Shown here: positions 18,075-35,164 of the stretch, in pieces
How positions within the stretch are numbered: the stretch's first letter is position 1
How the letters are laid out: the number at the start of each line of letters is the position of its first letter
Assembly: GCA_002699025.1 (NCBI GenBank)
Contig: PABA01000088.1
Span: forward strand, 1-64,000
Source: Sandaracinus sp.
GTDB taxonomy: Bacteria; Myxococcota_A; Polyangia; Polyangiales; Houyiibacteriaceae
Length of the DNA stretch: 64,000 nucleotides
Reading direction: 5' to 3'
The notes under the pieces: generated by a model
Databases searched by the model: none
Seen by the model: only the letters and a program-made list of their open reading frames with translations
Told to the model about the DNA's origin: nothing
Position numbers and translations under genes: made by a program

Positions 18075-19454
18075 TCACCGCCGCCTCCGCCGACGCCCGA
18101 AGGCGCCGAAGGAGAGGGCGGCGAAGATCCATGCGGCGGAGGTCGCCGCGCCGGTGCCGGCCGCGGAGCAGCCGCCGCCGCCCGTCTCCATCACCGCGCC
18201 GTCGGCGACGATGGTGGTGACGTGCTGGGCCTGCGCGTCGAGCTCGCCGGTGACGAGGTCGGCGCCGAGCGTCGAGACCGTGACCTGGAGCTGGTACTCG
18301 CCGGCCCGGTCGGGCGTGAAGGTGACCTCGCTGCCCGGCTCGTAGACGTACTCGTGGCTCACGGAGGTCGACGACTCGCCGACCGGGTTCGCCACCGTCG
18401 CGCTCGAGCCCGAGGGCGCGCCCACGACGGTCCACTGGTAGCGCACGGGCTGCCCCTCGCGGTTGACGAAGAGCGGCACGCGGAAGGCCTCGCCCACGGC
18501 GCCGAGGAGGGCCGGCGCGTACACGTCGAGGCTCCCGGTCGGGTCGAGGCAGTTGTCCTCGTCGCCGAAGACCACGTAGCAGTAGGTGCTGTCGCAGAGG
18601 TCGCCGCGGCCGTCCCGGTCGATGTCGACCTGGTCGGCGTTCACGACGCCCGAGCAGTTGTCCGCGAGGTTCAGGATGCCGTCGCCGTCGCGGTCCGGGT
18701 CACAGGCGTCCCCGAGGCCGTCCACGTCGAGGTCCACCTGCTCCGGGTCGTAGACCGCGGGGCAGACGTCCGGCCGCAGCGGGTCGATCTCGCTGATGCC
18801 GTCGCCGTCGAGGTCCGGGAAGCAGGCCGAGAGCTGGTCCGAGCTCGGCTCGCTCACGGCCGCGTTCATCGGGCACGAGTCCTCGAGGTTCAACAGGCTG
18901 TCGCCGTCGATGTCCTCGTCGCAGGCGTCGCCGTAGCCGTCGCCGTCCATGTCCGGCTGGACGTCCAGGCCGGTCGGCACGGGGTTGGGCACGGCGGCGC
19001 AGTTGTCGACGGCGTCGAGGATCTCGTCGCCGTCCATGTCGTCGTCGCAGTGGTCGCCGAGGCCGTCGCCGTCCAGGTCGAGCTGACCGAGGTTGGCGAT
19101 GGCCAGGCAGTTGTCGCAGCTGTCCCCGACGCCATCGCCGTCCCCGTCGCTCTGGTCCGCGTTGTGGAAGCGGACGCAGTTGTCGAAGGGGTCCTCGATG
19201 CCGTCGTTGTCGTAGTCGTCGGCGTTCTGGTAGGTGTCTCCGAGATCGGTGTTGGCGATCAGGATGCTGCCGCCGCCACCGCAGCCGCAGCCTCCGCCGC
19301 CGCTCATGTCGGGCGTGCCGCACTCCCCGAAGCGGTTGTCGCACTCGAAGCCGGGGCTGTCCTGCGCGCCGGCCGCGAGGGGAATGCCGAGGGCCAGCAG
19401 TGACGCGGTCCCCCAGGTACGAATCCATCGAATCATCTCTATCGAGCTCCTCAC
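18075..19454 (-). CDS. TSP3-repeat secreted protein with MYXO-CTERM-like tail
   Basis: 459 residues. An N-terminal signal peptide ([19 protein letters not shown]) is followed by a Gly/Cys patch (GGGGCGCGGGG) and about eight thrombospondin type-3 Ca-binding repeats (DxDxDGxxD...DNC; residues about 75-290). A beta-sandwich region follows that could be PKD/Ig-like ([25 protein letters not shown]). The C-terminus has Gly-Gly-Gly-Cys, a hydrophobic helix ([14 protein letters not shown]) and six Arg, the layout of MYXO-CTERM sorting tags. That suggests processing at the Cys and surface anchoring. It lies 300 bp upstream of the VWA pair on the same strand. Confidence 0.85.
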
Positions 19455-19772: not shown

Positions 19773-21755
19773 GTGCCCGCCCTCCGCCCGACCTCGCTGG
19801 CTCTCGCGCCCCTCGCCGCCGCGCTGCTCGTCGCTTGCACCGACACGCAGCTCTTCCGCGACGACGGCACGCTCTACGAGGCCGACCGGCTCACGCTCCG
19901 CGGTCGCGTCTGCGCCGAGGACACGCGCCAGGCCACGCTGCCGACGCGCGTGGTGCTGATCGTCGACCAGGCGACGGGCCCGCTCTTCGCGGACTACGAC
20001 CCGGGCGCCACCCGCGTGCCGCTGCTCCGGAGCTTCATCCAGTCGCGCCTCGCGGACCCGGACGTGAGCTTCGCCGTCGTCGGCTACGGCGGGCTCGCCA
20101 CCATTCACGCGCCGACGGAGGGCGACTTCACGCGGAACCTCGGCGAGCTCCTGAACGCCGTCGACCTGCTCTCGCTCCCCGAGCCCTGCGCCGCGGACGA
20201 CCTCTGCCGTGACCCGGTCGCCGCGCTCCGGAGCGCCCGCGCGCTCATCGAGGGGGACCTCGCGAACACGCCCCCCGGCGAGCGTGTGCTGACCCAGTAC
20301 CAGGTCCTCTGGGTGCCCGCCGGGCCGCCCGCCCCCCTCGCGCCGGCCGCGCTCTGCTGCGCGCCGGACGACACGGCCTGCCGCGCCGCGGGCGACGCCC
20401 CCTCGGCCGAGTGCCAGGCGCAGCTCGAGCTCGAGACGGCGACGGACCTCCTCGGCGCCGTGCATCGGCTCGGTGCGCTCGGCGCGAAGCTCCACGTGAT
20501 GCACCTCGCAGCCGACGCGCCCGAGGTGAACGACGCGCTCGAGGCGCGCTTCGGCGACCTCACCTTCGCCGTCGGCGGCACCTACCAGCGCTTCGCGACG
20601 CCCGCGGCCTTCGACGGGCGCGCCTTCGACGTGCTCTCGGAGCGGCCGACGCTCCGCGCCAAGACCCTCCTCGTCGCCAACCAGAACGCGCTGCCCACGG
20701 GGGAGGGCGTCGCCGTCGACTCGGACGCCGACGGCCTGAGCGACGCGCAGGAGGCGGCCTTCGGCACGAGCCCCGGCGACCCGGACACGGACGGCGACGG
20801 CGTGAGCGACCTGGTCGAGGTGCTCGTCGACTTCGATCCGCTCACGCCCGAGGAGCCCATCGCCTGCCGGCGCGTCGAGCCGGGCGACACGGATCTCGAC
20901 GGGCTGAGTGACTGCGACGAGGCCGTCCTCGGGACCGAGCCGACGCTCGTGGACACGGACGGGGACGGGCTGCCGGACCCGCTCGAGGTGCTCGGCTTCG
21001 TCGACTACCTGCACGCGGACGCGGAGGACGACGCGGACGGCGACGGCGTCGCGAACGGCGACGAGATCCGCATGCGCATGCACCCGCGCTCGGGCGACAC
21101 GGGGCTGCACCTCGCCGAGGGGTACCGCTACGAGGTGGAGGACGAGGGGGTCGTGCGCGAGCTCTTCGCCGAGAGCCCGCGGCGCCTCGACGCCGTGCAG
21201 ACGCTCGAGGTCGGGCCGGACACGACGCCCGGTCGCGGGACCATCCTCTTCCGCGCGGACGGCACGCTCGCCTGGCAGGACCCGGGCGACTCGGAGCCCG
21301 GCGAGCCGGTCGCGATCGTCCCGCCCATGGCGAGCCCCGACGAAGAGGTCGAGCTCGTCCTCTGGGCCGCCGAGAGCGCGCCGCCCGTGCCCGACGCCGA
21401 GGGGAACGTCCCCGACCCGGCGCCCGGCTCGTGGATCCGCGTCCGCGTCCAGCCCTGGCTCCTGCCCCCGGCCGAGGTCGTCGAGGCCCTGCCCGTGGCC
21501 TACCGGGAGCGCCACTGCCTCCAGTACACGGTGCGCAACGTCCGCCTCCTGCCGACCGCCGGCTACGACGACGGCCGCGACGTCGGCACCAACCGCATCC
21601 TCCTCTTCTTCGCGGAGACGCCCGCCGGCGCGCCCCCCACGGCGCCGGGCCCGGTGCGCATCGCGGAGATCCCCGTGTTCTTCGAGCCCCCGGCCCGCCG
21701 CTTCCCCGACGGCCCGGTGCTCGAGGTCCTCGACGACGAGTTCGTCCGCCGCTGA
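19773..21755 (+). CDS. VWA-like/TSP3-repeat lipoprotein (C), MIDAS-deficient
   Basis: 660 residues from a GTG start; signal LALAPLAAALLVACTD ends in a lipobox. The VWA-like fold begins VVLIVDQATGPLF, so the DxSxS metal site reads DQATG and is probably lost. TSP3 repeats follow at about 305-430 (DSDADGLSDAQEAAFGTSP, DTDGDGLPDPLEVLG). The C-terminal part shares NRILLFFAET with paralogues A and B. It lies 23 bp upstream of the TolQ start with no terminator visible, so it appears to be the first gene of the TolQ/ExbD/AgmX operon. That ties the VWA family to the motor cluster. Confidence 0.85.
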   Translation: MPALRPTSLALAPLAAALLVACTDTQLFRDDGTLYEADRLTLRGRVCAEDTRQATLPTRVVLIVDQATGPLFADYDPGATRVPLLRSFIQSRLADPDVSFAVVGYGGLATIHAPTEGDFTRNLGELLNAVDLLSLPEPCAADDLCRDPVAALRSARALIEGDLANTPPGERVLTQYQVLWVPAGPPAPLAPAALCCAPDDTACRAAGDAPSAECQAQLELETATDLLGAVHRLGALGAKLHVMHLAADAPEVNDALEARFGDLTFAVGGTYQRFATPAAFDGRAFDVLSERPTLRAKTLLVANQNALPTGEGVAVDSDADGLSDAQEAAFGTSPGDPDTDGDGVSDLVEVLVDFDPLTPEEPIACRRVEPGDTDLDGLSDCDEAVLGTEPTLVDTDGDGLPDPLEVLGFVDYLHADAEDDADGDGVANGDEIRMRMHPRSGDTGLHLAEGYRYEVEDEGVVRELFAESPRRLDAVQTLEVGPDTTPGRGTILFRADGTLAWQDPGDSEPGEPVAIVPPMASPDEEVELVLWAAESAPPVPDAEGNVPDPAPGSWIRVRVQPWLLPPAEVVEALPVAYRERHCLQYTVRNVRLLPTAGYDDGRDVGTNRILLFFAETPAGAPPTAPGPVRIAEIPVFFEPPARRFPDGPVLEVLDDEFVRR

Positions 21756-21778
21756 GCGGCGGAATGGAGATAACCCCC

Positions 21779-22621
21779 ATGCGACACGCCCTGAAGTCCT
21801 TCCTCCCCTCCCTCGCGCGCCCCACCGCTCTGCTGGCGGCGCTCCTCGTGCCCACGCTCGGCGCCTCCCTCGCCTCCGCTCAGGAAGAGGCGGCGGAGTC
21901 CGAGGCGGCCGCGGAGAGCGGCGGCGGCGGCATCGGCGTCCTGACCGACTACCTCGCCGACGGCGGGGCGGCCATGTACGTCATCCTCGCGCTCTCGCTG
22001 ATCGGCACGGCGCTCTTCCTCGAGCGCGCCTTCGACCTCTACGTCCTGCAGAAGCTCCCGACCAAGAGCCTGCTCGGCAAGGTCATGAACGCCGTCGAGC
22101 GTCGCCGCTGGGCCGACGCGCTGAACGCCTGCGACGTCCGCTCGGCGCACCCGCTGGTCCGCGTGCTCAAGGCCGGCGTCCTCCGCGCGGATCGGCGCGG
22201 CAAGGAGATCGAGCAGGCCATGGAGAAGGAGATGCTCGAAGCCATCCCGAAGCTCCAGAAGCGGGTCGGGCTGATGGCGCTCCTCGCGAACGCGGCGACC
22301 CTGACGGGCCTGCTCGGCACCATCTTCGGCCTCATCACGGCCTTCAACAGCGTCGCCGCAGCCAGCGCCGCCGAGCGTCAGGAGGCCCTCGCGGCCGGCA
22401 TCTCGCAGGCCATGTACACCACGGCCTTCGGCATCGCCGTCGCGCTCCCGCTGCTCTTCATGCACCACTTCCTCTCGAAGCGGAGCGAGAAGATCATCCT
22501 CGAGGTCGAGGGCGGCGCCTCCGCGCTGCTGGTCGCCCTCGCCGGTGAGGTCGACGAGCGCACGCCGCCGGCCCGCGCCGAGCGCGGCGCGCCCGTCATG
22601 CCCCAGCTCGCGGGAGCGTGA
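21779..22621 (+). CDS. TolQ/ExbB/MotA proton-channel subunit
   Basis: 280 residues from the ATG at 21779, backed by GGAG at 21766-21769; an in-frame ATG at 21764 would overlap that site. It begins with a cleavable-looking signal (LLVPTLGASLASAQ), then TM1 near AMYVILALSLIGTALFLERAF, a cytoplasmic loop, and TM2/TM3 with ATLTGLLGTIFGLITAF and AMYTTAFGIAVALPLLF. These carry the conserved Thr and Gly positions of the TolQ/ExbB family. It should form the proton-conducting pentamer around the ExbD/TolR partners encoded next (8-bp gap). In Myxococcus the related AglR works with AglQ and AglS as the gliding motor. Confidence 0.92.
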   Translation: MRHALKSFLPSLARPTALLAALLVPTLGASLASAQEEAAESEAAAESGGGGIGVLTDYLADGGAAMYVILALSLIGTALFLERAFDLYVLQKLPTKSLLGKVMNAVERRRWADALNACDVRSAHPLVRVLKAGVLRADRRGKEIEQAMEKEMLEAIPKLQKRVGLMALLANAATLTGLLGTIFGLITAFNSVAAASAAERQEALAAGISQAMYTTAFGIAVALPLLFMHHFLSKRSEKIILEVEGGASALLVALAGEVDERTPPARAERGAPVMPQLAGA

Positions 22622-22628
22622 GGCCGCC

Positions 22629-23219
22629 ATGCCCTTCGCCCGCTTCCGCCACCGCGCCGAGGAGGTGCAGGAGCTCGATCTCCTGCCGGTGATGAACCTC
22701 TTCATGGTGCTCATCCCCTTCCTCCTGATGGGCGCCGCCTTCTACCAGATCGGCGTCATTCCGAGCTCGGTCGCCGCGCACGCCCCCGACGAGGAGGCCG
22801 AGCTCCCGCCGACGGATCGCGTGACGCTGCACCTGGTCGTCAAGCCCGACGCCATCGAGCTCTCGGCCACCAACGCGGCCCTCGCGCCCGAGGACCTCGA
22901 CGCGCTCGCCTGGGCCCAGGACGGCGCCCCGAGCTCCTGGGACCTCGACGGGCTCCAGGCCCAGCTCGCGTCCATCAAGGGGCGCTACCCGGCCAGCCAG
23001 ACCCTGGTCGTGCTCCCCCACGACGAGCTCGGCTACGAGCCCCTCGTCGAGCTCCTCGATGCGACGCGCGAGCGCCCGGTGGGCGAGGACGAGCACGGCG
23101 AGCCCACCTACGAGGACCTCTTCCCCGGCGTCGTCTTCAGCCGCTTCGTCGAAGGCGAGGCGGGGGAGGGCGAGGGCGAGGGCGCCGCGGACGACGGCGC
23201 CGCGACGGAGGCCGGGTGA
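22629..23219 (+). CDS. ExbD/TolR-family protein with Asn in place of the proton-binding Asp
   Basis: 196 residues: short cytoplasmic N-terminus, one TM helix (about 20-43) and a periplasmic ExbD-like domain (LHLVVKPDAIELS, LVVLPHDELGYEPLVELLDA), ending in an acidic Gly/Glu/Ala tail. In ExbD/TolR the helix starts PxxD, the Asp being essential for proton flow; here it reads LPVMNLFMVL, with Asn. The partner at 23219 keeps the Asp. So this subunit may be structural or provide asymmetry. The stop overlaps the next ATG by one base. Confidence 0.9.
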   Translation: MPFARFRHRAEEVQELDLLPVMNLFMVLIPFLLMGAAFYQIGVIPSSVAAHAPDEEAELPPTDRVTLHLVVKPDAIELSATNAALAPEDLDALAWAQDGAPSSWDLDGLQAQLASIKGRYPASQTLVVLPHDELGYEPLVELLDATRERPVGEDEHGEPTYEDLFPGVVFSRFVEGEAGEGEGEGAADDGAATEAG

Positions 23220-23704
23220 TGCGCAGCCGCTTCCTGAAGCCGCAGAAGGCCCCGGGCCTGATGCTCACCTCCCTCCTCGACATGTTCACGATCATCCTGA
23301 TCTTCCTGATCGTCAGCTTCGACGCGGAGAGCTACGACTTCCGCCTCGCCGAGGACGTGACGCTCCCCGAGAGCGCGACGCGCACGGAGCTCACGCCCGC
23401 CGTGAACGTGGCGATCACCCGCGGCCGCATCGTGGTCGAGCAGGACGAGCTGCTCGCCATCGAGGAGGGCCGCGTGCGCGAGAGCGACTACGACGCCGGG
23501 GAGATCCCCGAGCTCGTGGAGGCGCTCCGCGCCGAGTACGAGGCGCGCTTCGGCGAGGACGCCACCGCGCCCGACGACGTGACCGAGCCGATCGTGGTCG
23601 TCCAGTCCGATCGCTCCCTCGACTACCGGACGCTCTACGTGGTGCTGCGCTCCGCGGCGACGGCCGGCTTCTTCAAGTACCGCCTCGCGACGATGAAGTC
23701 ATGA
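23219..23704 (+). CDS. ExbD/TolR-family protein (intact Asp)
   Basis: 161 residues. After a short basic N-terminus (RSRFLKPQK) the TM helix reads LTSLLDMFTIILIFLIVSF with the conserved Asp, so this is likely the proton-responsive stator partner of the TolQ protein. The periplasmic domain (VNVAITRGRIVVEQDE, PIVVVQSDRSLDYRTLYVVL) matches the family. A GTG three bases upstream is an alternative start. Its stop overlaps the next ATG (ATGA). Confidence 0.92.
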   Translation: MRSRFLKPQKAPGLMLTSLLDMFTIILIFLIVSFDAESYDFRLAEDVTLPESATRTELTPAVNVAITRGRIVVEQDELLAIEEGRVRESDYDAGEIPELVEALRAEYEARFGEDATAPDDVTEPIVVVQSDRSLDYRTLYVVLRSAATAGFFKYRLATMKS

Positions 23705-24195
23705 CCCTGCTCCGCGCCCTCTTCCCCTTCGCCTTCGGGCTCCTCTTCGCCCTCTCCGGCGTCGTGCTCCCGGTCTCCACCGCGGACGCGCAAGACCGCG
23801 TCGAGCAGGACGACGGCGCCCGCGCCCGCCGGGCTCGCCGCGCCCGCGCTCGCCGCCGCCGCGCCCGCGCCCGCCGCCGGGCCCGCGCCCGCGAGGAGGC
23901 CCGGAACGCGCGCGAGGCCGACGACGCGACGCCCGACGCCGAGGACGTCGCCGGCGCCGAGGGCTCGGCCGAGGACGCGCCCCCCTCCCTCGCCGAGCAG
24001 CGCTCCAACAACCTCGAGTTCGACGAGCGCGTCATCCGCGGCGAGACGGCCGGGCAGGGCGCCATCGTCCTCTTCCAGCGCGGCGGCGAAGCCTTCGAGC
24101 CGCTCGCGCGCGTCCGCCGCTCCTTCCTGAAGGCCACCATCCTCGCCGTCTTCGGCGAGCCCCCCGCCACCCCGGAGGCCGACGATGCCGACTGA
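23701..24195 (+). CDS. Small periplasmic protein with Arg-rich tract
   Basis: 164 residues. Signal peptide (LLFALSGVVLPVSTADAQ), then a strongly basic run at about 42-65 (Arg/Ala repeats), an acidic linker and a conserved-looking C-terminal segment (NLEFDERVIRGETAGQGAIVLFQRG). The last part looks like a small folded module; I do not recognise a named family. Its place between ExbD and the AgmX/PglI protein, with overlaps on both sides, makes it a likely periplasmic part of the same machine. Confidence 0.8.
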   Translation: MTLLRALFPFAFGLLFALSGVVLPVSTADAQDRVEQDDGARARRARRARARRRRARARRRARAREEARNAREADDATPDAEDVAGAEGSAEDAPPSLAEQRSNNLEFDERVIRGETAGQGAIVLFQRGGEAFEPLARVRRSFLKATILAVFGEPPATPEADDAD

Positions 24196-27115
24196 GCAGA
24201 TGCACGAGGACGCGCCCCAGCTCGCGGGCGGCGGCACGGCCTCCGCGCGCACGCAGCTGCTGCTGCGCGAGATGTGGTCGCGCCCGGAGGACTTCGCGGC
24301 GCTCCTGAGCCTCCGCGATCACCTCCTGGAGGAGGGCCGCGTGAGCTCGCTGCTCCGCGCCGTCGAGTGGTGGGCCCAGCGCGCGCCGGACGAGCGCTCG
24401 GCGGCGCGCGGGATGTTCGCCGTGGCCGAGGCCCTCCGCGTGCGGCGCCTCGACCCGGAGGCGGCCATGGGCCTCTACGAGGAGGTGCTCCGGCGCGAGC
24501 CGCTCCACGCGCCGACCCTGCAGCGCCTCCGCCGCATGGCCACGGCCCACCGCGCGCCCGAGCGCCTGGTGGCGCCCCTCCAGCGCCGGGCGGAGGCCCT
24601 CGCCGTGCGCCACACGGCGGCCGACGCCTGCGCCGCCGCCTGGAAGGAGCTCGCCGAGCTCCGCGCCGTCGACCTCGGCGACGAGGACGGAGCCATCGAC
24701 GCGCTCCACCGCGCCGTGCAGGTCGCGCCGGGGGACGCCGGCACGCTCCTCCGCCTCGCCGGCCTCTACGAGGCGCGCGCGAGGCGCGGCGACGGTTCGA
24801 ACGCGCAGGCCGATCGGGTCGCCGCCGCCGAGCTCCTCTGCGCCCTCGCCAGGGTCGACGAGGACGAGGCCGGCGCGCACCTCGGGCGCGCCCTCGACGC
24901 CTGGCCCGGGCACGCGAAGGCCATGGCGCTCCTGGAGGAGGCCACGCCGTCCGCGCATCGCGCCGCGCGCCTCATGGGTCGCTGGGTGGCCTTCCTCGAG
25001 GCGAACCCCTCGAGCGACGAGAGCGCGCCGCGGCGCCTCTCGCTGGCGCGAGCCCTCGAGGCCGGGGGGCGCTTCGCCGAGGCCCTCGAGGTGCTCGAGC
25101 CCCTGCGCGCGACCGGCGGCCCGGCCGTGCAGGCCGTGCGGGAGCGCCTCGCCAAGCAGCTCTGGGCGACCGAGCAGCCGACGCGGGTGGGCCCGCAGCC
25201 GAAGCGCGGGACGGACGCGAGCATCGTCGCGCTCCTCGACGAGCTCGAGGCCGAGGCGGAGGGGCCGACCGAGGTCTCGGCGATGAGCGCGGACGTGCGG
25301 GCGCGCCTCCGCGGCCCGGCCCCGGCGGCGACGCGGGACGTGGTCGTGGGCCGGCCCGTGCCGTCCGTGACGCCGCTCCCGACGGTCGTGCCGGCGCGCT
25401 CGGAGCCGGTCGACGAGGCGCTCGAGAAGACGCTCCCCTCGAAGCCGCCGCATTTCGGTCAGGACCCCTTCGCCGACGAGGAGGCGCCGACCGCGCACCG
25501 GGCCCTCGAGGGGTCGCCTCGCCCGGCGCAGGGCGACGACGAGGTCGACGAGAACGCCTCGACGATCGTGCGCGATCGGCCCCCGGAGCTCGAGGCCCTC
25601 GCGCGCCGGCGCCGCCGCGACGCCACGGCGGCGCAGCGGCCCTCGAAGAAGCCCGCGGCCCGGAAGGAGCCCACGCCCCCCTCCACGCCGCCGGCGCTCC
25701 CGGAGGCGCGGGGCGGGGTGGCCGCGGTGCCCTCGACGAGCGAGCCGACCGAGCCGCTCCCCCGTCTCCGCGCGCCGAAGGAGGGCGTCGAGCCGCGGCT
25801 CTGGGACGACGCGGAGGAGGACGAGGACGTCGTCCTGGCGCCGGACGGTCCGCCGGTCGCCAAGGCGCTCCGCGCCACCACCCTCGACTCGGGCGCGCAG
25901 GCGCCGCTCGCCGCGGACCTCGTTCGGCTCCGCGACGGGCGCACCGTGGGCACGACGGCCCTCCCGCTCCGCCCCTGGGGCCGCGCCGTCGCCGGGACGC
26001 CCTTCGTCGTCGCGCGCCGGGGCGAGGCCGTGCACCTCCAGCTCCGCTTCCCCGTGGAGCAGGGCGACCTCCGCCGCGGCGGCGTGCCCGAGGCGCTCCC
26101 GCCCATGGGCCGGTGGGTCGAGCTCCGCGCGGGCGACGTCGCCGAGCTCGAGCTCGAGGGGACGACCTACCACCTGCGCGTGCATCGCCGCCACGCGGTC
26201 CCCGCCGCGGGCCGGGAGGAGCTGCCGACCAGGCGCTTCCTCGGCGCGGCTGGCGCGTCCTTCGGCGCGCACCTCCTCGCCATGCTCGCCTTCGTCGCCC
26301 TCGGCGTCTGGGGCGGGGTCAGCCTCGAGGTGGAGGAGCGCTCGCGCGAGGAGATCTTCGCGGAGGCGCGCCTCGCTCCCGAGCCGCCCCCGGAGCCCGA
26401 GCGCCCCGAGCCGCGCCCCCAGCCGCGCCGCGCGCGCCCCGAGCCGCCGAGCGAGACGCGCACGCCCGTGCCCCGCGCCGTGCGCCGGCACCTCCGCCGC
26501 GCGCGTCGCTCCGGCAGCGCCTCCTCGCGCCTCGCCTCGGCCCTCTCGGAGGGCGCCGCCTCCCAGGGCACGACGGACCTCGCCGAGGTGGTCTCGAACA
26601 TCGACGCCGTCCGCGGCGACGCCCGGAGCGCCGCGCTCAGCGTGCACGGGGCGCTCGCCGACCTCGGCGACCACGGCGTGAACCTCGCGAGCCGGGCCGC
26701 CCGCGACATCGAGACGGTCGGGTCGGAGACGGCCACCCGGAACCTCGAGGGTGTGCGGGCGAGCGGCAGCGGTCGCACCCGCGGTCGCGTCCGCGGCGTC
26801 CGGGCCCTCGCCCGCGTGCAGGGCAGCCTGAGCCGGGGCGAGGTCGTCTCGGTCATCAACCGGCACATCGCCCGGGTGCAGCGCTGCTACGAGCGCGCCC
26901 TCGCGAGCCAGCCGGATCTCTCCGGTCGCGTGCGCTTCGCCTGGACCATCCGCCCGAACGGGCGCGTGAGCGGCGTGCGCCAGGCCGGCGGCTCGCTCGG
27001 CAGCGGCCGGGTCTCGAACTGCATCGGCGGCGTCATCCGGCGCATGCGCTTCCCGCGTCCCCGCGGCGGCCCGGTCGCCGTGACCTTCCCCTTCGTCTTC
27101 CAGCGCGCGCCCTGA
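24185..27115 (+). CDS. AgmX/PglI-type TonB-like protein (GltG/GltJ-like)
   Basis: 976 residues. Residues about 15-340 are TPR-like helical pairs (cytoplasmic), then a low-complexity linker. A beta-rich region at about 575-680 (PFVVARRGEAVHLQLRFP, GTTYHLRVHRRH) precedes a single TM helix near 690-712 (AHLLAMLAFVALGVWGG). A Pro/Arg/Glu stretch in the periplasm follows, then a C-terminal AgmX/PglI domain at about 884-976 (VINRHIARVQRCYERAL, VRFAWTIRPNGRVSGV). This is the layout of Myxococcus GltG/GltJ, which reach from the TolQR motor to the outer membrane. Such domains resemble TonB C-termini and probably contact the barrel encoded next. The ATG overlaps the previous stop by 11 bp. Confidence 0.88.
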   Translation: MPTEQMHEDAPQLAGGGTASARTQLLLREMWSRPEDFAALLSLRDHLLEEGRVSSLLRAVEWWAQRAPDERSAARGMFAVAEALRVRRLDPEAAMGLYEEVLRREPLHAPTLQRLRRMATAHRAPERLVAPLQRRAEALAVRHTAADACAAAWKELAELRAVDLGDEDGAIDALHRAVQVAPGDAGTLLRLAGLYEARARRGDGSNAQADRVAAAELLCALARVDEDEAGAHLGRALDAWPGHAKAMALLEEATPSAHRAARLMGRWVAFLEANPSSDESAPRRLSLARALEAGGRFAEALEVLEPLRATGGPAVQAVRERLAKQLWATEQPTRVGPQPKRGTDASIVALLDELEAEAEGPTEVSAMSADVRARLRGPAPAATRDVVVGRPVPSVTPLPTVVPARSEPVDEALEKTLPSKPPHFGQDPFADEEAPTAHRALEGSPRPAQGDDEVDENASTIVRDRPPELEALARRRRRDATAAQRPSKKPAARKEPTPPSTPPALPEARGGVAAVPSTSEPTEPLPRLRAPKEGVEPRLWDDAEEDEDVVLAPDGPPVAKALRATTLDSGAQAPLAADLVRLRDGRTVGTTALPLRPWGRAVAGTPFVVARRGEAVHLQLRFPVEQGDLRRGGVPEALPPMGRWVELRAGDVAELELEGTTYHLRVHRRHAVPAAGREELPTRRFLGAAGASFGAHLLAMLAFVALGVWGGVSLEVEERSREEIFAEARLAPEPPPEPERPEPRPQPRRARPEPPSETRTPVPRAVRRHLRRARRSGSASSRLASALSEGAASQGTTDLAEVVSNIDAVRGDARSAALSVHGALADLGDHGVNLASRAARDIETVGSETATRNLEGVRASGSGRTRGRVRGVRALARVQGSLSRGEVVSVINRHIARVQRCYERALASQPDLSGRVRFAWTIRPNGRVSGVRQAGGSLGSGRVSNCIGGVIRRMRFPRPRGGPVAVTFPFVFQRAP

Positions 27116-27165
27116 GCCTCTCCCCCGCGCCTCACCCCCGCGCCCAACCCCCACCCGCGTCCCCC

Positions 27166-27170
27166 GGAGG
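27166..27170 (+). promoter_or_regulatory. Strong Shine-Dalgarno before a TTG start
   Basis: GGAGG lies five bases before the TTG at 27176. It decides the start of the barrel gene, since no ATG precedes the signal peptide. Confidence 0.6.
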
Positions 27171-27175
27171 ATCCC

Positions 27176-27811
27176 TTGAACGCCCTGCACCGCCTCACCC
27201 TCGCCCTCGCCGCCGCGGCCACGCTGGCCACGGCCGCCCCGGCCGCCGCCCAGGAGGCCGCCGAGGAGGGCTACGCCTCCATGGCCGTCCAGAACCGGCG
27301 CTACGCCCAGCGCCACGAGTTCGACGCGCACTTCGGCGTGCTCCCCCTCGACGCCTTCACCAAGGGCCTCACGCTCAGCGGCTCCTACACCTTCCACCCG
27401 ACGAACCTCTTCGCCTGGGAGGTGCTCCACGGCCTGAAGTCCTTCCATCTCGACACGGACCTGCGCGAGGAGCTCGAGCAGCTCAGCGTCGCGCCGACGC
27501 CCTTCGAGGTGCTCGACTGGATGGTCACCTCGAACCTGGTGCTCAAGCCCATCTACTGGAAGGGCGCCTTCCTCAACCGCTCGGTCCTCCACGGAGAGGT
27601 CTCGCTCGTCGTCGGCGGCGGCTACGGGCGCTTCTCGCGGAGCGGGCGGGCGGTCATCGACGTGGGCCTCGCGCTCCGCCTCTTCGCGAGCGAGACCTTC
27701 AGCGTCCGCCTCGACGTGCGCCACCACATGTTCCTCCGGGACACGCCCTTCAGCGGCGGCGGGCTCGACCACGAGCTCTGGATCGCCCTGGCGTTCGGGC
27801 TCGGAGCCTGA
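27176..27811 (+). CDS. Outer-membrane beta-barrel domain protein (OMP_myx_plus-like)
   Basis: 211 residues starting at TTG behind GGAGG. Signal peptide (LALAAAATLATAAPAAAQ) is followed by QNRRYAQRHEFDAHFGVLPLDAFTKGLTLSGSYTFHPTN-type strands (quoted in part), which match the small myxobacterial outer-membrane barrels next to Glt genes (GltA/GltB/GltH class). Alternating hydrophobic strands continue to the C-terminal LWIALAFGLGA. It is probably the outer-membrane anchor or pore of the cluster. It lies 60 bp after the AgmX gene and 3 bp before the TPR lipoprotein. Confidence 0.85.
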   Translation: MNALHRLTLALAAAATLATAAPAAAQEAAEEGYASMAVQNRRYAQRHEFDAHFGVLPLDAFTKGLTLSGSYTFHPTNLFAWEVLHGLKSFHLDTDLREELEQLSVAPTPFEVLDWMVTSNLVLKPIYWKGAFLNRSVLHGEVSLVVGGGYGRFSRSGRAVIDVGLALRLFASETFSVRLDVRHHMFLRDTPFSGGGLDHELWIALAFGLGA

Positions 27812-27814
27812 GCC

Positions 27815-29236
27815 ATGACGCGCCCCGCCCCGTACGCCTCGCTCGCTCTCCTCCTCGCCGCCTGCGGCGCGACCGACTGGGCCGCCGACCCCGAGCGCGC
27901 CTTCTCGGGCGCCGTCGAGCGGAACGTCGAGGAGGACTGGGGCGAGTCCGCCAACGCCGCGCACGCCTTCCGGGCCTCGGCCACCGTCGACGACCCGCGC
28001 TGGGACCGCGCCGGCATGATGCTCGCGCGCGGCCTCGAGGAGCTGGGGCTGAGCTACGCGGCCTCGCTCCACTACCTCGACGTGGCCTCCGCGCGCCGCG
28101 ACGTGACCCTCGTCGACGACGCCGTCGCCGGCCTCGAGCGCATCCTCCGCGACCACCCGCACGACGGCGAGGTCCTCGTGCGCGGCTTCCTCGCGACGGC
28201 CGAGATCGACGACCTCGGCGAGGCGACGCGGGGCTGGGTGCGCTACCTCCAGGGCCTCGACAGCCTGCGCCGGGGCCAGCTCGCCTGGGCCGTGACGCAG
28301 TTCGGGCGCATCCCCGAGACGAGCGACTACGCCCCCCGCGCCCGCTTCGCCAGCGCCGTCGCGCTCCTCGCCCACGGCCGCTTCGCCGACGGACGCGCCG
28401 CCCTCGAGGCGCTCCTGGACGACCCGCTGCTCACGGACGAGCTCCGCCAGGAGACGCAGATCGCGCTCGCGCGCCTCGCCATGGACGAGGAGCGCCACGA
28501 GGACGCGGCGGCCCTCTACGACGAGGTGAAGGAGCTCGCGCCGGAGCGCCCGGAGCTGCTCCTCGAGACGGCCTGGGCCCACTACCACTCGGGCGACTCG
28601 CGGCGCGCCCTCGGCTTCCTGCTCGCGCTCGACGCGCCCATGTACGGCGACCTCATCGCGCCGGAGCGCTATCTCCTCGAGGCCTTCAGCCTGCAGCGGC
28701 TCTGTCAGTTCGATCCGGCGCGCACGGCCGCCGTGCGCCTCCGCGCCCGCCACGGGGACGCGCTCGAGGATCTGCACCGGGGCGTCCCGCCCGCGCGCTC
28801 CGAGGCGCTCCGGGCCGCCGCGCGGCGCCGGGGGGCCGGCCGGGAGATCGCGCGCTTCGTCGACCGGCTCCGCCTCGAGCGGGCCCGCGTCGCCGAGGCG
28901 GGCCGCGAGCTCGGCGAGCCGCTCCAGCACGCGCTCCTCGCCCTCTACGACCGCGGCCTGGCCGAGGCCACGCGCCGGGAGGAGGCGGTGCTCCGCGAGG
29001 AGACCGAGGCCCTCGCCCGCGAGCTGGTCCGCGCCGAGGACGGCGTGCGCCTCGTGCTCCACGACCTCGGCGTGGGGCTCCTCCGCGGGCGCCAGCGCGT
29101 GCCCGGCCCCGACGAGGTCGAGGCGCTGGTCGTCGAGGCCGGCGACGAGGCCGTCGGCTACGCCTTCGCCGGCGAGTTCTGGACCGACGAGCTCGACGAC
29201 CTCGTCGTCACCATCGAAGACCGTTGCCTGGAGTGA
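27815..29236 (+). CDS. TPR lipoprotein of the Glt-like cluster
   Basis: 473 residues with a lipoprotein signal (YASLALLLAACGATD) and TPR-like helix pairs across about 50-330 (YLQGLDSLRRGQLAWAVTQF, LLETAWAHYHSGDSRRALGFL), then a Glu/Arg-rich helical C-terminus (likely coiled coil) ending VVTIEDRCLE. It resembles GltE-type periplasmic TPR lipoproteins in layout. Coupled tightly to the barrel upstream and to the larger TPR gene 14 bp downstream. Confidence 0.82.
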   Translation: MTRPAPYASLALLLAACGATDWAADPERAFSGAVERNVEEDWGESANAAHAFRASATVDDPRWDRAGMMLARGLEELGLSYAASLHYLDVASARRDVTLVDDAVAGLERILRDHPHDGEVLVRGFLATAEIDDLGEATRGWVRYLQGLDSLRRGQLAWAVTQFGRIPETSDYAPRARFASAVALLAHGRFADGRAALEALLDDPLLTDELRQETQIALARLAMDEERHEDAAALYDEVKELAPERPELLLETAWAHYHSGDSRRALGFLLALDAPMYGDLIAPERYLLEAFSLQRLCQFDPARTAAVRLRARHGDALEDLHRGVPPARSEALRAAARRRGAGREIARFVDRLRLERARVAEAGRELGEPLQHALLALYDRGLAEATRREEAVLREETEALARELVRAEDGVRLVLHDLGVGLLRGRQRVPGPDEVEALVVEAGDEAVGYAFAGEFWTDELDDLVVTIEDRCLE

Positions 29237-29250
29237 CTGGAGTGATCGGA

Positions 29251-32200
29251 ATGACCCGCCCCGCTTCCCCCCTCGTCGCCGCTCTCCTCGGCGCCCTGCT
29301 CGCCGCCTGCGCCGGCAGCTCCGTCGCGCCCCGCGACGCGAGCGAGGTCGAGCTGCTCCGCATCCGCATCGCCAAGGCGCGCCACGCCATCGACGAGACG
29401 CGGACGGCCATCGCGACCTCCCAGGGCGCGCCCTACCTGCCCGAGCTCTACGCGCGGCTCGGTGCCCTCTACAGCGAGGAGGCGCGCTACCACTACCGGC
29501 TCGCCGCGGCGCGCTCGGCCGACGCGCGCCCGGACGCGCTCCACGTGCCCCAGGTGCGCCTCCTGAAGGAGCGCGCCATCGGCGTCTACCAGCAGATCCT
29601 CCGCCGCTTCCCGGGCGCCCCGAACCGCGACGAGGTCCTCTTCCACCTCGCCTTCGAGCACCGCGAGCTCGGCGAGCACGGGGACATGGTCGGCGCGCTC
29701 CGGCGCCTCGTCGACGAGCACCCCCACAGCCCCTTCCGGCCCCAGGCGGCCATCGTGCTCGGCGACCACCTGCGCGACCAGCAGGACCTCGAGGGCGCGG
29801 CGCGGGCCTACGCGATGGTGGCGGGCGGCGACGCGGGGAAGGCGGTGGCGCTCGCGCACTACCGGCTCGCGTGGATCCACGTGAACCGGGAGAGCTGCCC
29901 GGCGGCGCTCCGCGAGTTCGAGCGCGCCGTCGCGGCCTACGACGCGGCCGGGGAGGCCGTCGACGAGGAGACGCTCGAGATCGGCGAGGCCATCGACGTC
30001 CGCCGCTCGGCCATCGTGGACATGGTCTACTGCTATTCGCAGGAGCGGCCGCATCGGCGCGCGCTCCGCGACTTCCGCGCGCTCGCCGGCGACCGGGCCA
30101 CCTACGTGGCGGCGCTCCGGCGGCTCGCGCGGCGCTACGCGCTGATGGACAACGCCCACGCGACGCTGCCCGTGGTGCGCGAGCTGCTCGCGCTGGCGCC
30201 GGCCTCGGAGGAGCGCCTCGACGACGCCCGCGCGCTCCACACGGCGCTCCGCGGCGCCGCGGACTGGGACCGCATCGACCGGGACGTGCGGCTGCTCCTG
30301 GGCACGGTCGAGCGCACCGTGCAGCGCCTCGACGTGGAGGGCGAGGAGCGGGACACGCTGCGCGCCGAGTTCGAGGTCTACGCGCGGGATCTCCTCACCC
30401 GCGCGCAGGACGGAATGCGCGAGACCCGGAACGCGGCGCGGAAGGTGCGCCGCGCCGAGGCCCTCGCCGCCGCCTACGCGCACTACCTCGACCGCTTCGG
30501 CGTCGCGCCGGAGGGTGAGCTCGGGGAGCACGAGCTGGACATGCGCATGAACCTCGCGGACGTGCTCGCCGCCGCCGAGCGCCCCTACGCGGCCGGGCAG
30601 CGTCTCGTCGAGGCGGCCGAGCGCATGGAGGACCCGGAGGCGCGGCGGCAGGCGCTCTACGACGCCGTCGGGCGCTTCAGCGAGGCCCTCGAGACGCGGG
30701 ACCACGACCGGGACGAGTACGGCGACCGGAGCATCGCGCCCTCGGCCCTCCGGAACGCGGCGGCGCAGCTCATGCGGCACGAGCTCGAGCCGGACCAGCT
30801 CCGGCGGGTGCGCTTCGCGCTGGCCCAGAGCTACTACGACCAGGGCCGCTACGCCGAGGCCATCGATCGGCTCACGGCGCTCGCCTACGAGTTCCCCCAG
30901 AGCGAGGAGGCGCAGGCGGCCGCGCGGCTGGTGCTCGACAGCTACAACACGCTCGACGACGCCTTCGGGCTCATGCACGCCGGGCGCCGCTTCCTCGCCG
31001 AGGGCACGCCCGTGCCCGGGCTGCGGAGCGAGCTCGAGCCGCTGGTCGCGGCCGCCGAGCAGCGCATGGTCGACGAGGTCAGCCTCGAGCAGGCCGGCGA
31101 CGACGGGGGCGACCTCGAGCCGCTCCTCGAGCTGGCGCGGGATCACGAGGGCACGGACCTCGGCGAGCGCGCGCTCATGAACGCCTTCCTGGCGGCGCGG
31201 GCCGCGGGCGACACGGCGCAGATGTACACGCTCGGCGAGGAGCTGGCGCAGGCCTACCCGAGCTCCGAGCAGCTCGCGGGGGTGCTGAGCACGCTCGGTC
31301 AGATGGCCGTCGGGCGCTTCGAAGTCGACGAGGCGCTGACCTTCCTCGAGCGGGCGGCCGAGGCCGGTCACGAGCGCCAGGGCGCGCTCCGGGTCGCCGC
31401 CGGGCAGCTCCTCGAGGCCCTGGGCCGCGAAGACGAGGCGCAGGCCGCCTACGAGGCGGCGATGGGCGGGGAGGGCGCGCCGGAGGAGGCGATGGTGCAG
31501 CTCGCGGCGCTCCTCGAGCGGCGCGGCGACGCCGACGCGCTGGTGAACCAGCTCGCCGAGCTGCCGAGCGCGCCGCCCGAGGTGCGCGCCCGGGTGGGCC
31601 TGGCGATGGTGGCGACCGGGCGCGGCGTGGAGGCCGAGGAGGTCTTCCAGCAGGTGCTGGCGACGGCCTCGACTCCGGAGGCGCTCGCGCGCGCTCACTA
31701 CGGGATGGCGGCGCTCCTCCAGGCGGCCCTCTCGCAGTTCGGCGCGCTCGAGGGGCCCGAGCTGGTGGAGGAATACCTGGCCGTCGTGGACCTCGCGCAG
31801 AGCTCCTACATCGAGGCCGTGCGCCAGGGCGACCCGGCCGTGGGGGCGCTGGCGCTCGGGCGGCTCGGCGCGCTCGCCGACGAAGCGGCGGCGGCGCTGG
31901 GGAGCGCGAACCTGGACGGCTTGGACGCGGAGATGCGCCGGGTGATCGAGCGCGGCCTCGGGCAGCGGGCCGAGGCCTACGCGCAGACGGCGACCGAGGC
32001 GCGGGCCCAGTGTGCGAACCGCGCCTGGGAGAGCCACGTCTTCACGCCGGGCGTGCGCCGCTGCCTGCGGGGGGAGTCGGCGACGGCGGTGCTGCCCGAG
32101 GCCGACCGGCTCGAGCGCGGGGGCGGACGGACCGTGGACGGGGCCGACGAGACCCGGGCGCGGGTCGCCCAGAACCCCGAGGATCTCCAGGCGCTCCGGG

Positions 32201-32517
32201 CGCTGGCGGCGCGGCATCTCGAGGCCGGCGACGCGCACACGGCGCGGCTGGTGCTGCAGGCCATCGCCGAGCGCGGGCCACGGCCGGAGGACCTGGAGCA
32301 GCTCGGCGTGGCGAGCGCGCGGATCGGCGACCACGCGGGGGCGCTCCGGGCCTTCGCCCGCGCGGCGGACGCGGGGAGCGCGTCGGCCCGGGAGAAGCTC
32401 GAGGCGACGCTGCGGGAGCTCGGGCTCCGGGACGCGGCGGCCGAGGTCGGGCGGCGCTTCGGCCAGGAGCGGCTCGCGCGAGGCCCGGGCCCGGAGGATG
32501 CGGGGGGCAGGCGATGA
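29251..32517 (+). CDS. Large TPR lipoprotein of the Glt-like cluster
   Basis: 1,088 residues from the ATG at 29251; the frame is open far upstream, but this start gives the lipoprotein signal (LVAALLGALLAACAGSS). Almost the whole mature protein is TPR/tol-pal-like helical repeats (DEVLFHLAFEHRELGEHGDM, RFALAQSYYDQGRYAEAIDRL, PYLPELYARLGALYSEEA). It would form a long periplasmic superhelix, in the manner of the large TPR subunits of the Glt complex (GltD/GltI class). The stop overlaps the next ATG (ATGA). Confidence 0.85.
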   Translation: MTRPASPLVAALLGALLAACAGSSVAPRDASEVELLRIRIAKARHAIDETRTAIATSQGAPYLPELYARLGALYSEEARYHYRLAAARSADARPDALHVPQVRLLKERAIGVYQQILRRFPGAPNRDEVLFHLAFEHRELGEHGDMVGALRRLVDEHPHSPFRPQAAIVLGDHLRDQQDLEGAARAYAMVAGGDAGKAVALAHYRLAWIHVNRESCPAALREFERAVAAYDAAGEAVDEETLEIGEAIDVRRSAIVDMVYCYSQERPHRRALRDFRALAGDRATYVAALRRLARRYALMDNAHATLPVVRELLALAPASEERLDDARALHTALRGAADWDRIDRDVRLLLGTVERTVQRLDVEGEERDTLRAEFEVYARDLLTRAQDGMRETRNAARKVRRAEALAAAYAHYLDRFGVAPEGELGEHELDMRMNLADVLAAAERPYAAGQRLVEAAERMEDPEARRQALYDAVGRFSEALETRDHDRDEYGDRSIAPSALRNAAAQLMRHELEPDQLRRVRFALAQSYYDQGRYAEAIDRLTALAYEFPQSEEAQAAARLVLDSYNTLDDAFGLMHAGRRFLAEGTPVPGLRSELEPLVAAAEQRMVDEVSLEQAGDDGGDLEPLLELARDHEGTDLGERALMNAFLAARAAGDTAQMYTLGEELAQAYPSSEQLAGVLSTLGQMAVGRFEVDEALTFLERAAEAGHERQGALRVAAGQLLEALGREDEAQAAYEAAMGGEGAPEEAMVQLAALLERRGDADALVNQLAELPSAPPEVRARVGLAMVATGRGVEAEEVFQQVLATASTPEALARAHYGMAALLQAALSQFGALEGPELVEEYLAVVDLAQSSYIEAVRQGDPAVGALALGRLGALADEAAAALGSANLDGLDAEMRRVIERGLGQRAEAYAQTATEARAQCANRAWESHVFTPGVRRCLRGESATAVLPEADRLERGGGRTVDGADETRARVAQNPEDLQALRALAARHLEAGDAHTARLVLQAIAERGPRPEDLEQLGVASARIGDHAGALRAFARAADAGSASAREKLEATLRELGLRDAAAEVGRRFGQERLARGPGPEDAGGRR

Positions 32518-33170
32518 GTCCGAAGAGAGGAGCCGGGATGCCGAAGCGCTTCGGGAGGCCCTTCATGAAGTGGATGCGGAAGCCGGGCAGGCCGTCGAGC
32601 GCGAGGCGCGCCGCGATGGCGTGGGTGATCGGCGCGCTGGCGATGGGATGCGGCGCGAGCGTGGAGGCGCTCGACGCGCGGGACCCGACGCTCCCGGTGG
32701 AGACCCGGAGCTGGATCGCGGGCGCCGAGGACGGCGTGATCGTAGCGCGGGCCGAGCTCGACATGGCGAAGGGCGAGCGCCGGCGCGTGGCGCGCTGGGC
32801 CGCGCGGGTCGAGGAGAGCCTCGAGGGGGCGCTCGACGGAGCGCTCGAGGCGCTGGTCGAAGCGCGGACGCGGGAGGCCGAACTCGCCGTCGAGGAGGCC
32901 GAGGTCGGCCTCGAGCTCGCGCTCGCCAAGCAGGAGCTCGTCTACGCGGAGAGCGCCGTCCGGCACGACCGGGCGAGCTACGACCTCGGGCCGCTCCGCG
33001 AGGGCGTCGACGCGCTCCGCGAGCGGGCGCGCGAGGCGGGGAGGGCGACGAGCCGGGCGGAGATGGAGAGCCAGACGGCGGCGAACGCGTTCTGGGAGGC
33101 GTACGGGCGCTACGCGGCGGGGGGCGGCGACACGACCGAGTTCTGGGTCGCCGGGGTGCTGCCGGAGTAG
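32514..33170 (+). CDS. Coiled-coil lipoprotein, end of Glt-like operon
   Basis: 218 residues from ATG 32514. Several in-frame Met follow (32538, 32565), and the true start may be one of them, because the signal AAMAWVIGALAMGCGAS lies about 34 residues in. The mature part is largely a long Glu/Ala/Arg coiled coil (about 75-190). It is translationally coupled to the TPR gene. No family recognised; the coil suggests a structural or spacer role in the periplasm. Confidence 0.75.
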   Translation: MSPKRGAGMPKRFGRPFMKWMRKPGRPSSARRAAMAWVIGALAMGCGASVEALDARDPTLPVETRSWIAGAEDGVIVARAELDMAKGERRRVARWAARVEESLEGALDGALEALVEARTREAELAVEEAEVGLELALAKQELVYAESAVRHDRASYDLGPLREGVDALRERAREAGRATSRAEMESQTAANAFWEAYGRYAAGGGDTTEFWVAGVLPE

Positions 33171-33499
33171 GGCGGGCGAGGGGCTCGGAGTTGGAGCCCG
33201 ATGGGGATCGTGGAGTTGGCGTTGGAGCTGGATTCGGGTTCGGACGGGGATGACGGAGCTGAAGCTGGAACTGGATCGGGATGGGGACGGCCGCGTCGGC
33301 CGCGCATGAGCCAAGTCCCGCGTTAGGGCATGCGCGCCGCCGCCCGCTCTCCCTGGCGGGCGGAGTCCGCCCGCCGTGGCGTCCCCCACCCGGAGGCGAT
33401 CCCCCAACGCATGGCCTGCCTGCTCTCCTGCGCGACTCCTCCGAGCGTCTCGCCCCACCGTCCGCCCGGGAGGGCGGGCCATGGATTACTCTCTCCCGC
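33171..33499. other. Intergenic region with GGAGYTGGA repeats and palindrome
   Basis: 329 bp. 33186-33290 is a degenerate G-rich tract built on GAGTTGGAG/GGAACTGGA-like words. A perfect 21-bp palindrome with a single central base at 33355-33375 (arms GGCGGGCGGA and TCCGCCCGCC) may end the upstream operon, though no T-run follows. No gene seen. Confidence 0.5.
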
Positions 33500-35164
33500 A
33501 TGACCCGCTCGCGTGTGATCGCATCCTCCGCGCTGACGGCGCTCCTGCTCCTGAGCGCCTGCGGCGACGACGACGCCCGCATCGAGATGGACGCCGGCAC
33601 GGACGCCGGCACGGTCGACGCAGGTTCGGCGGATGCCGGTTCGGCGGACGCCGGTGCCGACGCCGGCGCTCTCGAGGACGCGGCGGCGGACGCCTCCGAG
33701 CCGGGCGCGCCCACGGCGCTCTCGGCCGAGGTGGACGCGCGCATCGAGACGGCCTTCGTGGGCCAGCTCGAGGGCACGGACCCCGACGGCGACGCGCTCA
33801 CCTTCGCCGTCGTGAGCGATCCCTCGAGCGGCACGCTCGCGGTGGAGGCTGACACGGGCGCCTTCACCTACACCCCCGAGGACGGCTTCACGGGGGAGGA
33901 CGCCTTCACCTTCGAGGTCAGCGACGGGGGCGAGACGTCGGCGCCCGCGACCGTCTCCCTGACGGTCCACTACGTGACGAACGGCACCCTCGATCCCACC
34001 TTCGCCGGAGACGGCGTCCAGGTCGGCCCGGTGAGCGCGTCCTTGCTCTCGGATCTCGTCGTGCTGGACGACGGCCGCATCGTGGCCGCGGGGAACTCGA
34101 CGAGCGCCGACCTGCTCCTGGTCGGCTACGAGGCCGACGGGGACGTCGACGCCACCTTCGGGTCGGGGGGCACGGTCGTCGCCGACATCGCCGGTGGCTA
34201 CGATGGCTTCGGCGCCCTCGCGCGTCAGAGCAGCGGTCGGCTCATCGCGGTCGGGCAGGCCGGCGGCGCGAGTCGGGACATGCTCGCCGCGGCCTACTCC
34301 GAAGACGGCGCGCTGGACACGGACTTCGGTACGGACGGCTACGCGATCCTGGATTTCGATGGGGGGTCCGACTCGGCGAGCGCGCTCGTCGTGCTCGCGG
34401 ACGACTCGATCCTCCTCGGCGGCTACTCGGTCGGAGAGAGCGGCGACGAAGACTTCACGGTCGCGCGCCTCGGCGCGGACGGGGCGTTGGACACGAGCTT
34501 CGGCACCGATGGCTGGGCGCGCGTCGACTTCGAGGGCGCCGACGACCGGGTCGAGGCCATGGTGGTCGACGGGATGGGGCGCATCGTCCTGGCCGGGGAC
34601 GCGGACTTCGGGGATGGGAGCGTCGAACACATCGCGGCGGCGCGCCTCTTGGCCGACGGGACGCTCGACGCGAGCTTCGGGACCGACGGCGAGACCGTGG
34701 TGGAGCTCGGCGAGCTCTCGGCGGCGCAGGCCGTGGAGCTGGGCGCGGACGGGCGCATCTGGCTGGCCGGTAGCCGGGACGATGGGACGGCGGACGCCAT
34801 GGTGGTGGTCGCGCTCGGGCCGGATGGAACGCTCGACACCCGCTTCGACGAGGACGGCTGGGTGACCGTGCCCTTCGGAGACAACCAGGCGTACGCGCAG
34901 GACCTCCTCGTGCAGCCGGACGGGAGCCTGCTCGTCGTCGGTAGCGCGCGCACCGGGGCGTCCGCGCTCGTCGCGGCCATCGCCTCGCTCCTCCCCGACG
35001 GCTCCCCCGACGAGGGCTTCGACGAGGACGGCTGGGCCACGTTCGCCTTCGGCACGCAGGACATCTTCTTCGCCGTGCGCCGCCAGCCGGACGGCAGGGC
35101 GCTGGCATGCGGGTGGGCGCGGAGCGGGCAGCTGGAGCCGCTGATGGTGCGCTTCGCGCGGTAG
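33500..35164 (+). CDS. Delta-60 repeat lipoprotein with cadherin-like domain
   Basis: 554 residues from ATG 33500 (signal SSALTALLLLSACGDDD). An Asp-Ala-Gly-rich linker (DAGTDAGTVDAGSADAG) leads to a cadherin/VCBS-like domain (about 75-155, DPDGDALTFAVVSDPSSGTL). About seven delta-60 repeats follow, with the recurring phrases LDTSFGTDGW, DDGRIVAAG and VVLADDSILLGG, which form a propeller or barrel. The family is typical of myxobacterial surface lipoproteins; no enzyme motif. Single gene, convergent with the sigma54 activator. Confidence 0.88.
   Translation: MTRSRVIASSALTALLLLSACGDDDARIEMDAGTDAGTVDAGSADAGSADAGADAGALEDAAADASEPGAPTALSAEVDARIETAFVGQLEGTDPDGDALTFAVVSDPSSGTLAVEADTGAFTYTPEDGFTGEDAFTFEVSDGGETSAPATVSLTVHYVTNGTLDPTFAGDGVQVGPVSASLLSDLVVLDDGRIVAAGNSTSADLLLVGYEADGDVDATFGSGGTVVADIAGGYDGFGALARQSSGRLIAVGQAGGASRDMLAAAYSEDGALDTDFGTDGYAILDFDGGSDSASALVVLADDSILLGGYSVGESGDEDFTVARLGADGALDTSFGTDGWARVDFEGADDRVEAMVVDGMGRIVLAGDADFGDGSVEHIAAARLLADGTLDASFGTDGETVVELGELSAAQAVELGADGRIWLAGSRDDGTADAMVVVALGPDGTLDTRFDEDGWVTVPFGDNQAYAQDLLVQPDGSLLVVGSARTGASALVAAIASLLPDGSPDEGFDEDGWATFAFGTQDIFFAVRRQPDGRALACGWARSGQLEPLMVRFAR

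Follow-up and report, generated by a model that had tools for sequence, protein, structure and literature searches.

In a 64,000-nucleotide stretch of Sandaracinus sp. DNA (contig PABA01000088.1, positions 1-64,000 of the forward strand, assembly GCA_002699025.1; hereafter, the window), a block of ten genes (19773-33170, all on the plus strand) was found next to genes of the mts (thrombospondin-like) cohesion locus. On balance, we consider it probable that this mts locus is joined to its own Agl/Glt-type proton-driven machine acting on the Mts adhesins. The two gene sets stay paired in relatives, an indication that cohesion between cells can be powered actively. The evidence consists of the gene content of the locus, its synteny, the lineage of the motor, the loss of an Asp from one motor subunit and a His in the transducer that tracks the presence of the motor. 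The gene order in the block was VWA1, TolQ, ExbD1, ExbD2, Arg-rich protein, AgmX, barrel, TPRa, TPRb and small lipoprotein, and adjoining genes overlapped by up to 11 bases or were separated by up to 66. The conserved unit reaches further left, to approximately 8656. Conservation of the gene order in several families of the class shows that the arrangement is not due to chance. The first-pass annotation, made from the sequence alone, had described ten parts packed with overlaps; all ten genes were recovered, and their families were supported by profile scores (Pfam and NCBIfam models, read against the model cut-offs). The Arg-rich protein and the last small protein had no family match above cut-off in either collection. 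Lipobox cysteines were seen in VWA1, TPRa, TPRb and the last gene.

The identity of the locus as mts was read from the minus-strand neighbours of the block. MtsC (18075-19454, minus strand), a MYXO-CTERM TSP3 cell-cell cohesion protein, scored 517.6 bits with its equivalog model NF047638 (cut-off 350), and its tail scored 23.0 bits with the MYXO-CTERM model (cut-off 20). The MYXO-CTERM-like TSP3 neighbour noted in the first pass was thus present and could be named more specifically. The two VWA paralogues placed there on the opposite strand were also confirmed, both being MtsD-like TSP3/VWA proteins. They are called VWA2 and VWA3 here, VWA1 being the lead gene of the block. VWA2 (15552-17774, minus strand), a VWA and TSP3 lipoprotein, reached 151.2 bits with the MtsD model, and its position is syntenic with that of Myxococcus xanthus MtsD; VWA3 (13558-15555, minus strand), a second MtsD paralogue kept beside VWA2, reached 119 bits. 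The equivalog cut-off of 800 was missed by VWA1, VWA2 and VWA3 alike (117-151 bits), and the three genes are classed here as MtsD relatives, with VWA2 corresponding to MtsD by position only. The mts locus (MtsC, MtsD; Zhang 2007) is cited here by way of PMC11980579 and PMC6593220, the former of which reports the involvement of MtsC in cohesion and social motility in M. xanthus.

VWA1 (19773-21755, plus strand) was predicted to be an MtsD-like lipoprotein (116.7 bits with the MtsD model) with a VWA fold, TSP3 calcium repeats and a C-terminal beta domain. TSP3_bac (35.7 bits) was its sole Pfam match, and no VWA domain was detected by Pfam. The VWA label given to the lead gene in the first pass was nevertheless upheld by its AlphaFold model (mean pLDDT 85.9, pTM 0.80), for which the Foldseek matches were VWA domains of PDB structures. 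The lipobox Cys was invariant in 17 orthologues. The metal site was degenerate, with DQATG in place of DxSxS, and DxSxS was absent from VWA1 in all ten of the closest sequences. VWA2 and VWA3 carried DQSTS and DASES, respectively, both conforming to DxSxS, and the motif was kept by these two proteins in nearly all sequences in which it was read. Because VWA1 has lost the metal site while VWA2 and VWA3 keep it, the gene fixed to the motor more likely encodes a connector than a metal-dependent adhesin itself.

The linkage between the two halves was examined across relatives. Of 290 genomes searched in the class, 25 had VWA1 homologues (E <= 1e-30), and the surroundings could be read for 24 loci. 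In this sample, chosen by VWA1, the motor lay inside the cluster in 20 of the 24 loci, at two alternative positions. In the eleven type-A loci, the motor stood between VWA1 and the Arg-rich gene (G000, G031, G009, G090, G172, G190, G178, G155, G131, G125 and G141), and in the nine type-B loci, it followed the TPR genes (G181, G211, G208, G164, G169, G214, G236, G120 and G289). Three of these (G141, G120 and G289) were counted by joining contigs; the other 17 were each on a single contig. In G120 and G289, the motor was seemingly lost at a contig edge, and AgmX, the barrel, the TPR genes and the motor were found on another contig. The motor was missing from the cluster in the remaining four loci (G023, G117, G133 and M. 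xanthus), with a clade-B motor elsewhere in the genomes of G117 and G133. A third TolQ of G023 (L263) was tested for the role of the missing dedicated motor; it fell outside clades A and B, on a long branch. The reverse search, which started from TolQ in 116 genomes of the order, recovered the window-type clade-A TolQ in four genomes, with VWA1 directly upstream in all four. Separation of the VWA genes from the TolQ block in relatives, named in the first-pass annotation as contrary evidence, was looked for and not found, and the gene order was conserved across several families.

The motor genes are contiguous. TolQ (21779-22621, plus strand), an AglR-type proton-channel subunit, scored 91.5 bits with MotA_ExbB (PF01618, cut-off 22.9), and both channel threonines, T181 and T215, were kept in the alignment with TolQ 8odt. 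Its score with the TolQ equivalog model was 61.1 bits, below the cut-off of 221. A tree built from 60 TolQ-family proteins split Tol-Pal/ExbB types from AglR types with support of 96/91 and placed the window TolQ inside the AglR-type group. This group comprised clades I, II, A and B. Clades I and II, with one M. xanthus member each, were found in nearly all genomes searched, and clades A and B were the motors of the mts genomes, the window TolQ belonging to clade A. Together, A and B formed one clade with moderate support (81/86), and the dedicated motor may accordingly represent, with the same moderate support, a third AglR-type lineage. When the window TolQ and an AglR-type TolQ of M. xanthus were searched against the PDB, all entries returned were of Tol-Pal or ExbB. 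As a separate observation, two divergent AglR-type motor sets (clades I and II) stood side by side at L063 on contig C69 of the same genome, an arrangement repeated across many genomes of the order.

The position of TolQ in the tree rejected an ordinary Tol-Pal system. A Tol-Pal-type machine for general envelope maintenance that lies beside the adhesin genes by chance would fit the TolQ/ExbD parts and the weak ybgF/CpoB-type TPR matches. It is nonetheless very improbable in our estimate, as neither a TolB nor a Pal gene was present in the block and the adhesin neighbours were conserved across several families, beside the block in most relatives.

The two ExbD/TolR-like subunits differed at the functional site. 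ExbD1 (22629-23219, plus strand; PF02472, 32.1 bits, cut-off 25.4) carried Asn23 (codon AAC, 22695-22697) at the site of the proton-carrying Asp. Asn occupied this site in all eleven type-A loci, the distant G125 and G141 among them. In ExbD2 (23219-23704, plus strand; PF02472, 41.8 bits, same cut-off), Asp21 (codon GAC, 23279-23281; aligned with ExbD 7ajq) was kept, as it was in all type-A loci. Asp was present in both ExbD proteins of the type-B motors and of both M. xanthus AglR-type motors. The corresponding Asp-to-Asn exchange in AglQ (D28N) abolishes proton conductance and paralyses both Agl-Glt and Agl-Nfs (PMC3858216). Therefore, if the type-A motor runs, it must run on ExbD2 alone. 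ExbD1 and ExbD2 would presumably form a mixed pair in the motor.

AgmX (24185-27115, plus strand), a GltG-like transducer, scored 92.5 bits with myxo_SS_tail (NF033768, cut-off 40), and its GltG-model match of 74.5 bits was limited to the C-terminal domain. The protein consisted of a cytoplasmic N-terminal TPR region, one membrane helix, a periplasmic linker and an AgmX/PglI TonB-like C-terminal domain. His696 (codon 26270-26272) lay within the membrane helix. In having one membrane helix that contains a conserved His and, in the periplasm, a TonB-like C-terminal domain, AgmX conforms to a TonB/TolA-type transducer. A conserved membrane SHLS motif is described for such force transducers (PMC12204202), and AgmX was compared at the His alone. 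The His was aligned in all 19 AgmX proteins whose genomes carry a clade-A or clade-B motor. In two of these the motor is in trans, and 17 are of type A or B, among them L057 (G203), where the contig stops before the motor and a clade-B TolQ is on another contig. At one further locus, L260, the AgmX sequence does not reach the helix. No His was found at the helix column in three Myxococcaceae-type loci and in G023, where no clade-A or clade-B motor was seen, the genome-wide motor search among these His-less loci having covered M. xanthus and G023. G023 AgmX had a His at the helix edge instead. M. xanthus GltG and the GltG paralogue had no His at this column either. The presence or absence of the His with the motor marks a likely motor-transducer contact. 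Most relatives had an AgmX with an FHA-like N-terminus, and that of the window, G031, G009 and G023 was TPR-like; a TPR-like region in place of the AgmX/GltG-like FHA domain was noted in the window and in L047, L048 and L050. In the genome of the window, the AgmX/PglI C-terminal domain (NF033768) was matched 34 times, versus six TolQ-family genes; therefore, many such proteins share motors or do without.

The remaining genes of the block encode envelope proteins. The Arg-rich protein (23701-24195, plus strand), small and exported, carried the motif FDxR(L/V)xxGQTAxSGA(I/V)xLFxR, which, among all fetched loci, was restricted to those of the kind described here; it could serve as a marker to find more such loci. 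After AgmX came an outer-membrane beta-barrel of the OMP_myx_plus family (27176-27811, plus strand; TIGR04565, 70.5 bits, cut-off 60), TPRa (27815-29236, plus strand), a TPR lipoprotein distantly related to GltC (50.6 bits), and TPRb (29251-32517, plus strand), a large TPR lipoprotein. The last gene encodes a small lipoprotein (32538-33170, plus strand; lipobox AMGC) that occupies the same place in several relatives.

The first-pass annotation had equated this set with the parts list of the Agl-Glt gliding complex and had proposed an ancestral or alternative machine. An AglR-type motor with two ExbD proteins, a GltG/TonB-like transducer, a barrel and TPR lipoproteins were indeed tied genetically to the VWA/TSP3 genes, and matches were obtained at the family level. 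Strict Glt membership did not hold, as the Glt cut-offs were widely missed (AgmX with GltG, 74.5 versus 650 bits; AgmX with GltJ, 54.6 versus 450; TPRa with GltC, 50.6 versus 450). Stronger Glt homologues were present on other contigs of the same genome (GltC, 278 bits, C10; GltG, 458 bits, C118). Because of these missed cut-offs and better homologues, the block is best classed, by its profile matches, as a paralogous Agl/Glt-type machine and not as a member of Glt proper; the better homologues likewise rule out the ancestral option.

These data also bear on the possibility that the block is a second gliding machine, Agl-Glt proper, in which the VWA proteins act like CglB. The AglR-type motor and the GltG-, GltC- and GltD-like parts would suit it, as would the Glt adhesin CglB, likewise a VWA protein (PMC13104615). 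However, this would have to accommodate the scores above, and no GltI-, GltJ- or CglB-like gene was recognised in the block. Moreover, TPRb was far closer to the mts-adjacent TPR gene of M. xanthus (E 1.3e-91) than to other gltD-like genes (next match, 4e-24), and the mutant of the probable M. xanthus counterpart glides (PMC3169522). We therefore regard gliding as an improbable function. Since the neighbours of the block are the mts cohesion genes, cohesion appears the likelier output.

A scan of public genomes identified the M. xanthus mts locus (L083). On one strand, it carried MtsC (597 bits) and MtsD (1350 bits, cut-off 800) together with additional VWA paralogues, and on the divergent strand AgmX (GltG model, 217 bits), a barrel, TPRa (GltC model, 87 bits), TPRb and an Arg-rich protein. 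A near-identical layout was seen at L079 (BNCN01000002.1), a record titled Comamonas sp., a name that looks wrong. Luciano 2011 described a Glt-like cluster, G5, with the gltD homologue MXAN_1327 and a function unknown in that paper (PMC3169522). As the M. xanthus genome holds four gltD-like loci, the mts-adjacent cluster is probably G5.

Several observations weigh against a dedicated machine acting on the Mts adhesins. The main objection comes from M. xanthus: no TolQ-family gene was found on its mts contig, so that not every such locus needs a motor of its own, and mutation of MXAN_1327, in what is probably G5, had no visible effect on motility (PMC3169522). Because this mutant is motile whereas MtsC is reported in cohesion and social motility, the cohesion half and the envelope-machine half may be loosely coupled. 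In addition, a VWA adhesin would be expected to have a metal site, which is missing from VWA1, and the union of clades A and B is only moderately supported, the grouping of A with clade I not being rejected (p-AU 0.137). The same data bear on the leading alternative, an export or assembly machine, in which the motor powers surface delivery of the VWA/TSP3 lipoproteins and MtsC and not their later movement. It would explain why synteny has been kept with lipoproteins whose probable destination is the cell surface, and the barrel and TPR lipoproteins fit a translocation or assembly site. However, M. xanthus manages without a motor in cis, its MXAN_1327 mutant remains motile, and MtsC would not need such a machine if, as the title of Sah 2020 (a reference in PMC11980579) reports, MYXO-CTERM proteins are surface-delivered by type II secretion. 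We consider export unlikely, although it is the strongest competitor.

According to the model of a powered cohesion locus, TolQ with ExbD1 and ExbD2 would constitute a proton-driven inner-membrane motor acting on AgmX, the GltG-like transducer with a TonB/TolA-type His in its membrane helix. The periplasmic arm of AgmX would transmit force to an outer-membrane set (the barrel, both TPR lipoproteins, the small lipoprotein and VWA1), with which it would form a complex. This set, in turn, would hold or move the calcium-binding surface proteins MtsC, MtsD (VWA2) and VWA3, and the outcome would be cell-cell cohesion under proton-driven tension or movement. The work done may be tension, movement or exposure; movement of the adhesins by the motor is something we infer. 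A more detailed version, in which an asymmetric motor with one proton-competent ExbD of two pulls via the TonB-like helix on the calcium-binding adhesins and yields regulated, proton-powered cohesion, is possible but doubtful. If the model is correct, the proton gradient powers cell-cell adhesion in these bacteria, and the Agl/Glt family, which serves gliding and spore-coat assembly, gains a third output. The finding connects the mts cohesion locus with what is probably the M. xanthus Glt-like cluster whose function was unknown in 2011, two subjects so far treated separately. AglQ D28N, the change that stops the Agl motor (PMC3858216), has a natural equivalent in the fixed ExbD1 Asn. The implication is that a motor with two ExbD proteins can run on one proton site, which makes it a direct test of the stator mechanism.

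Further genes surround the block. On the mts side, two conserved proteins with no family assigned (11208-13586 and 9809-11221, both minus strand) had orthologues at the same place in relatives. A small conserved lipoprotein (8656-9159, minus strand) shifted within the locus, as its counterparts were found in the gap between VWA1 and TolQ in L049, L053, L054 and L055, beside TolQ in L261 and elsewhere beside MtsC. A delta-60-repeat protein (33281-35164, plus strand) lay directly 3' of the block and was not recovered in the loci of relatives. Downstream, an NtrC-type sigma-54 activator with an FHA-like stretch (35266-36630, minus strand) had homologues with 43-46% identity near the mts locus in L052, L064, L065, L072 and L250, and it is a candidate regulator of the locus.

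When compared with known systems, the block resembled Agl-Glt in its motor type (one TolQ, two ExbD), in its GltG-, GltC- and GltD-like parts and in having a VWA lipoprotein. It differed in the low Glt-model scores, the lack of GltI and GltJ, the helix His of AgmX, the Asp-to-Asn change in ExbD1 and the presence of mts proteins in place of CglB. The Agl-Nfs sporulation machine is likewise a Glt paralogue powered by an Agl-type motor (PMC3858216); however, Nfs uses AglRQS in trans (PMC3858216), whereas the window cluster has a dedicated motor. A TolQ/ExbB-type channel and a transducer that combines a membrane His with a TonB-like C-terminal domain were shared with the Tol-Pal and Ton systems, from which the block was set apart by its AglR-group TolQ and by the lack of TolB, Pal or a TonB-dependent receptor. 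Cluster G5 of M. xanthus is similar in its Glt-type envelope genes. The M. xanthus mts locus shared MtsC, the MtsD-like VWA/TSP3 paralogues, the neighbouring AgmX-barrel-TPRa-TPRb cluster and the Arg-rich protein, whereas its cluster has no TolQ/ExbD and its AgmX carries an FHA-like domain without the helix His.

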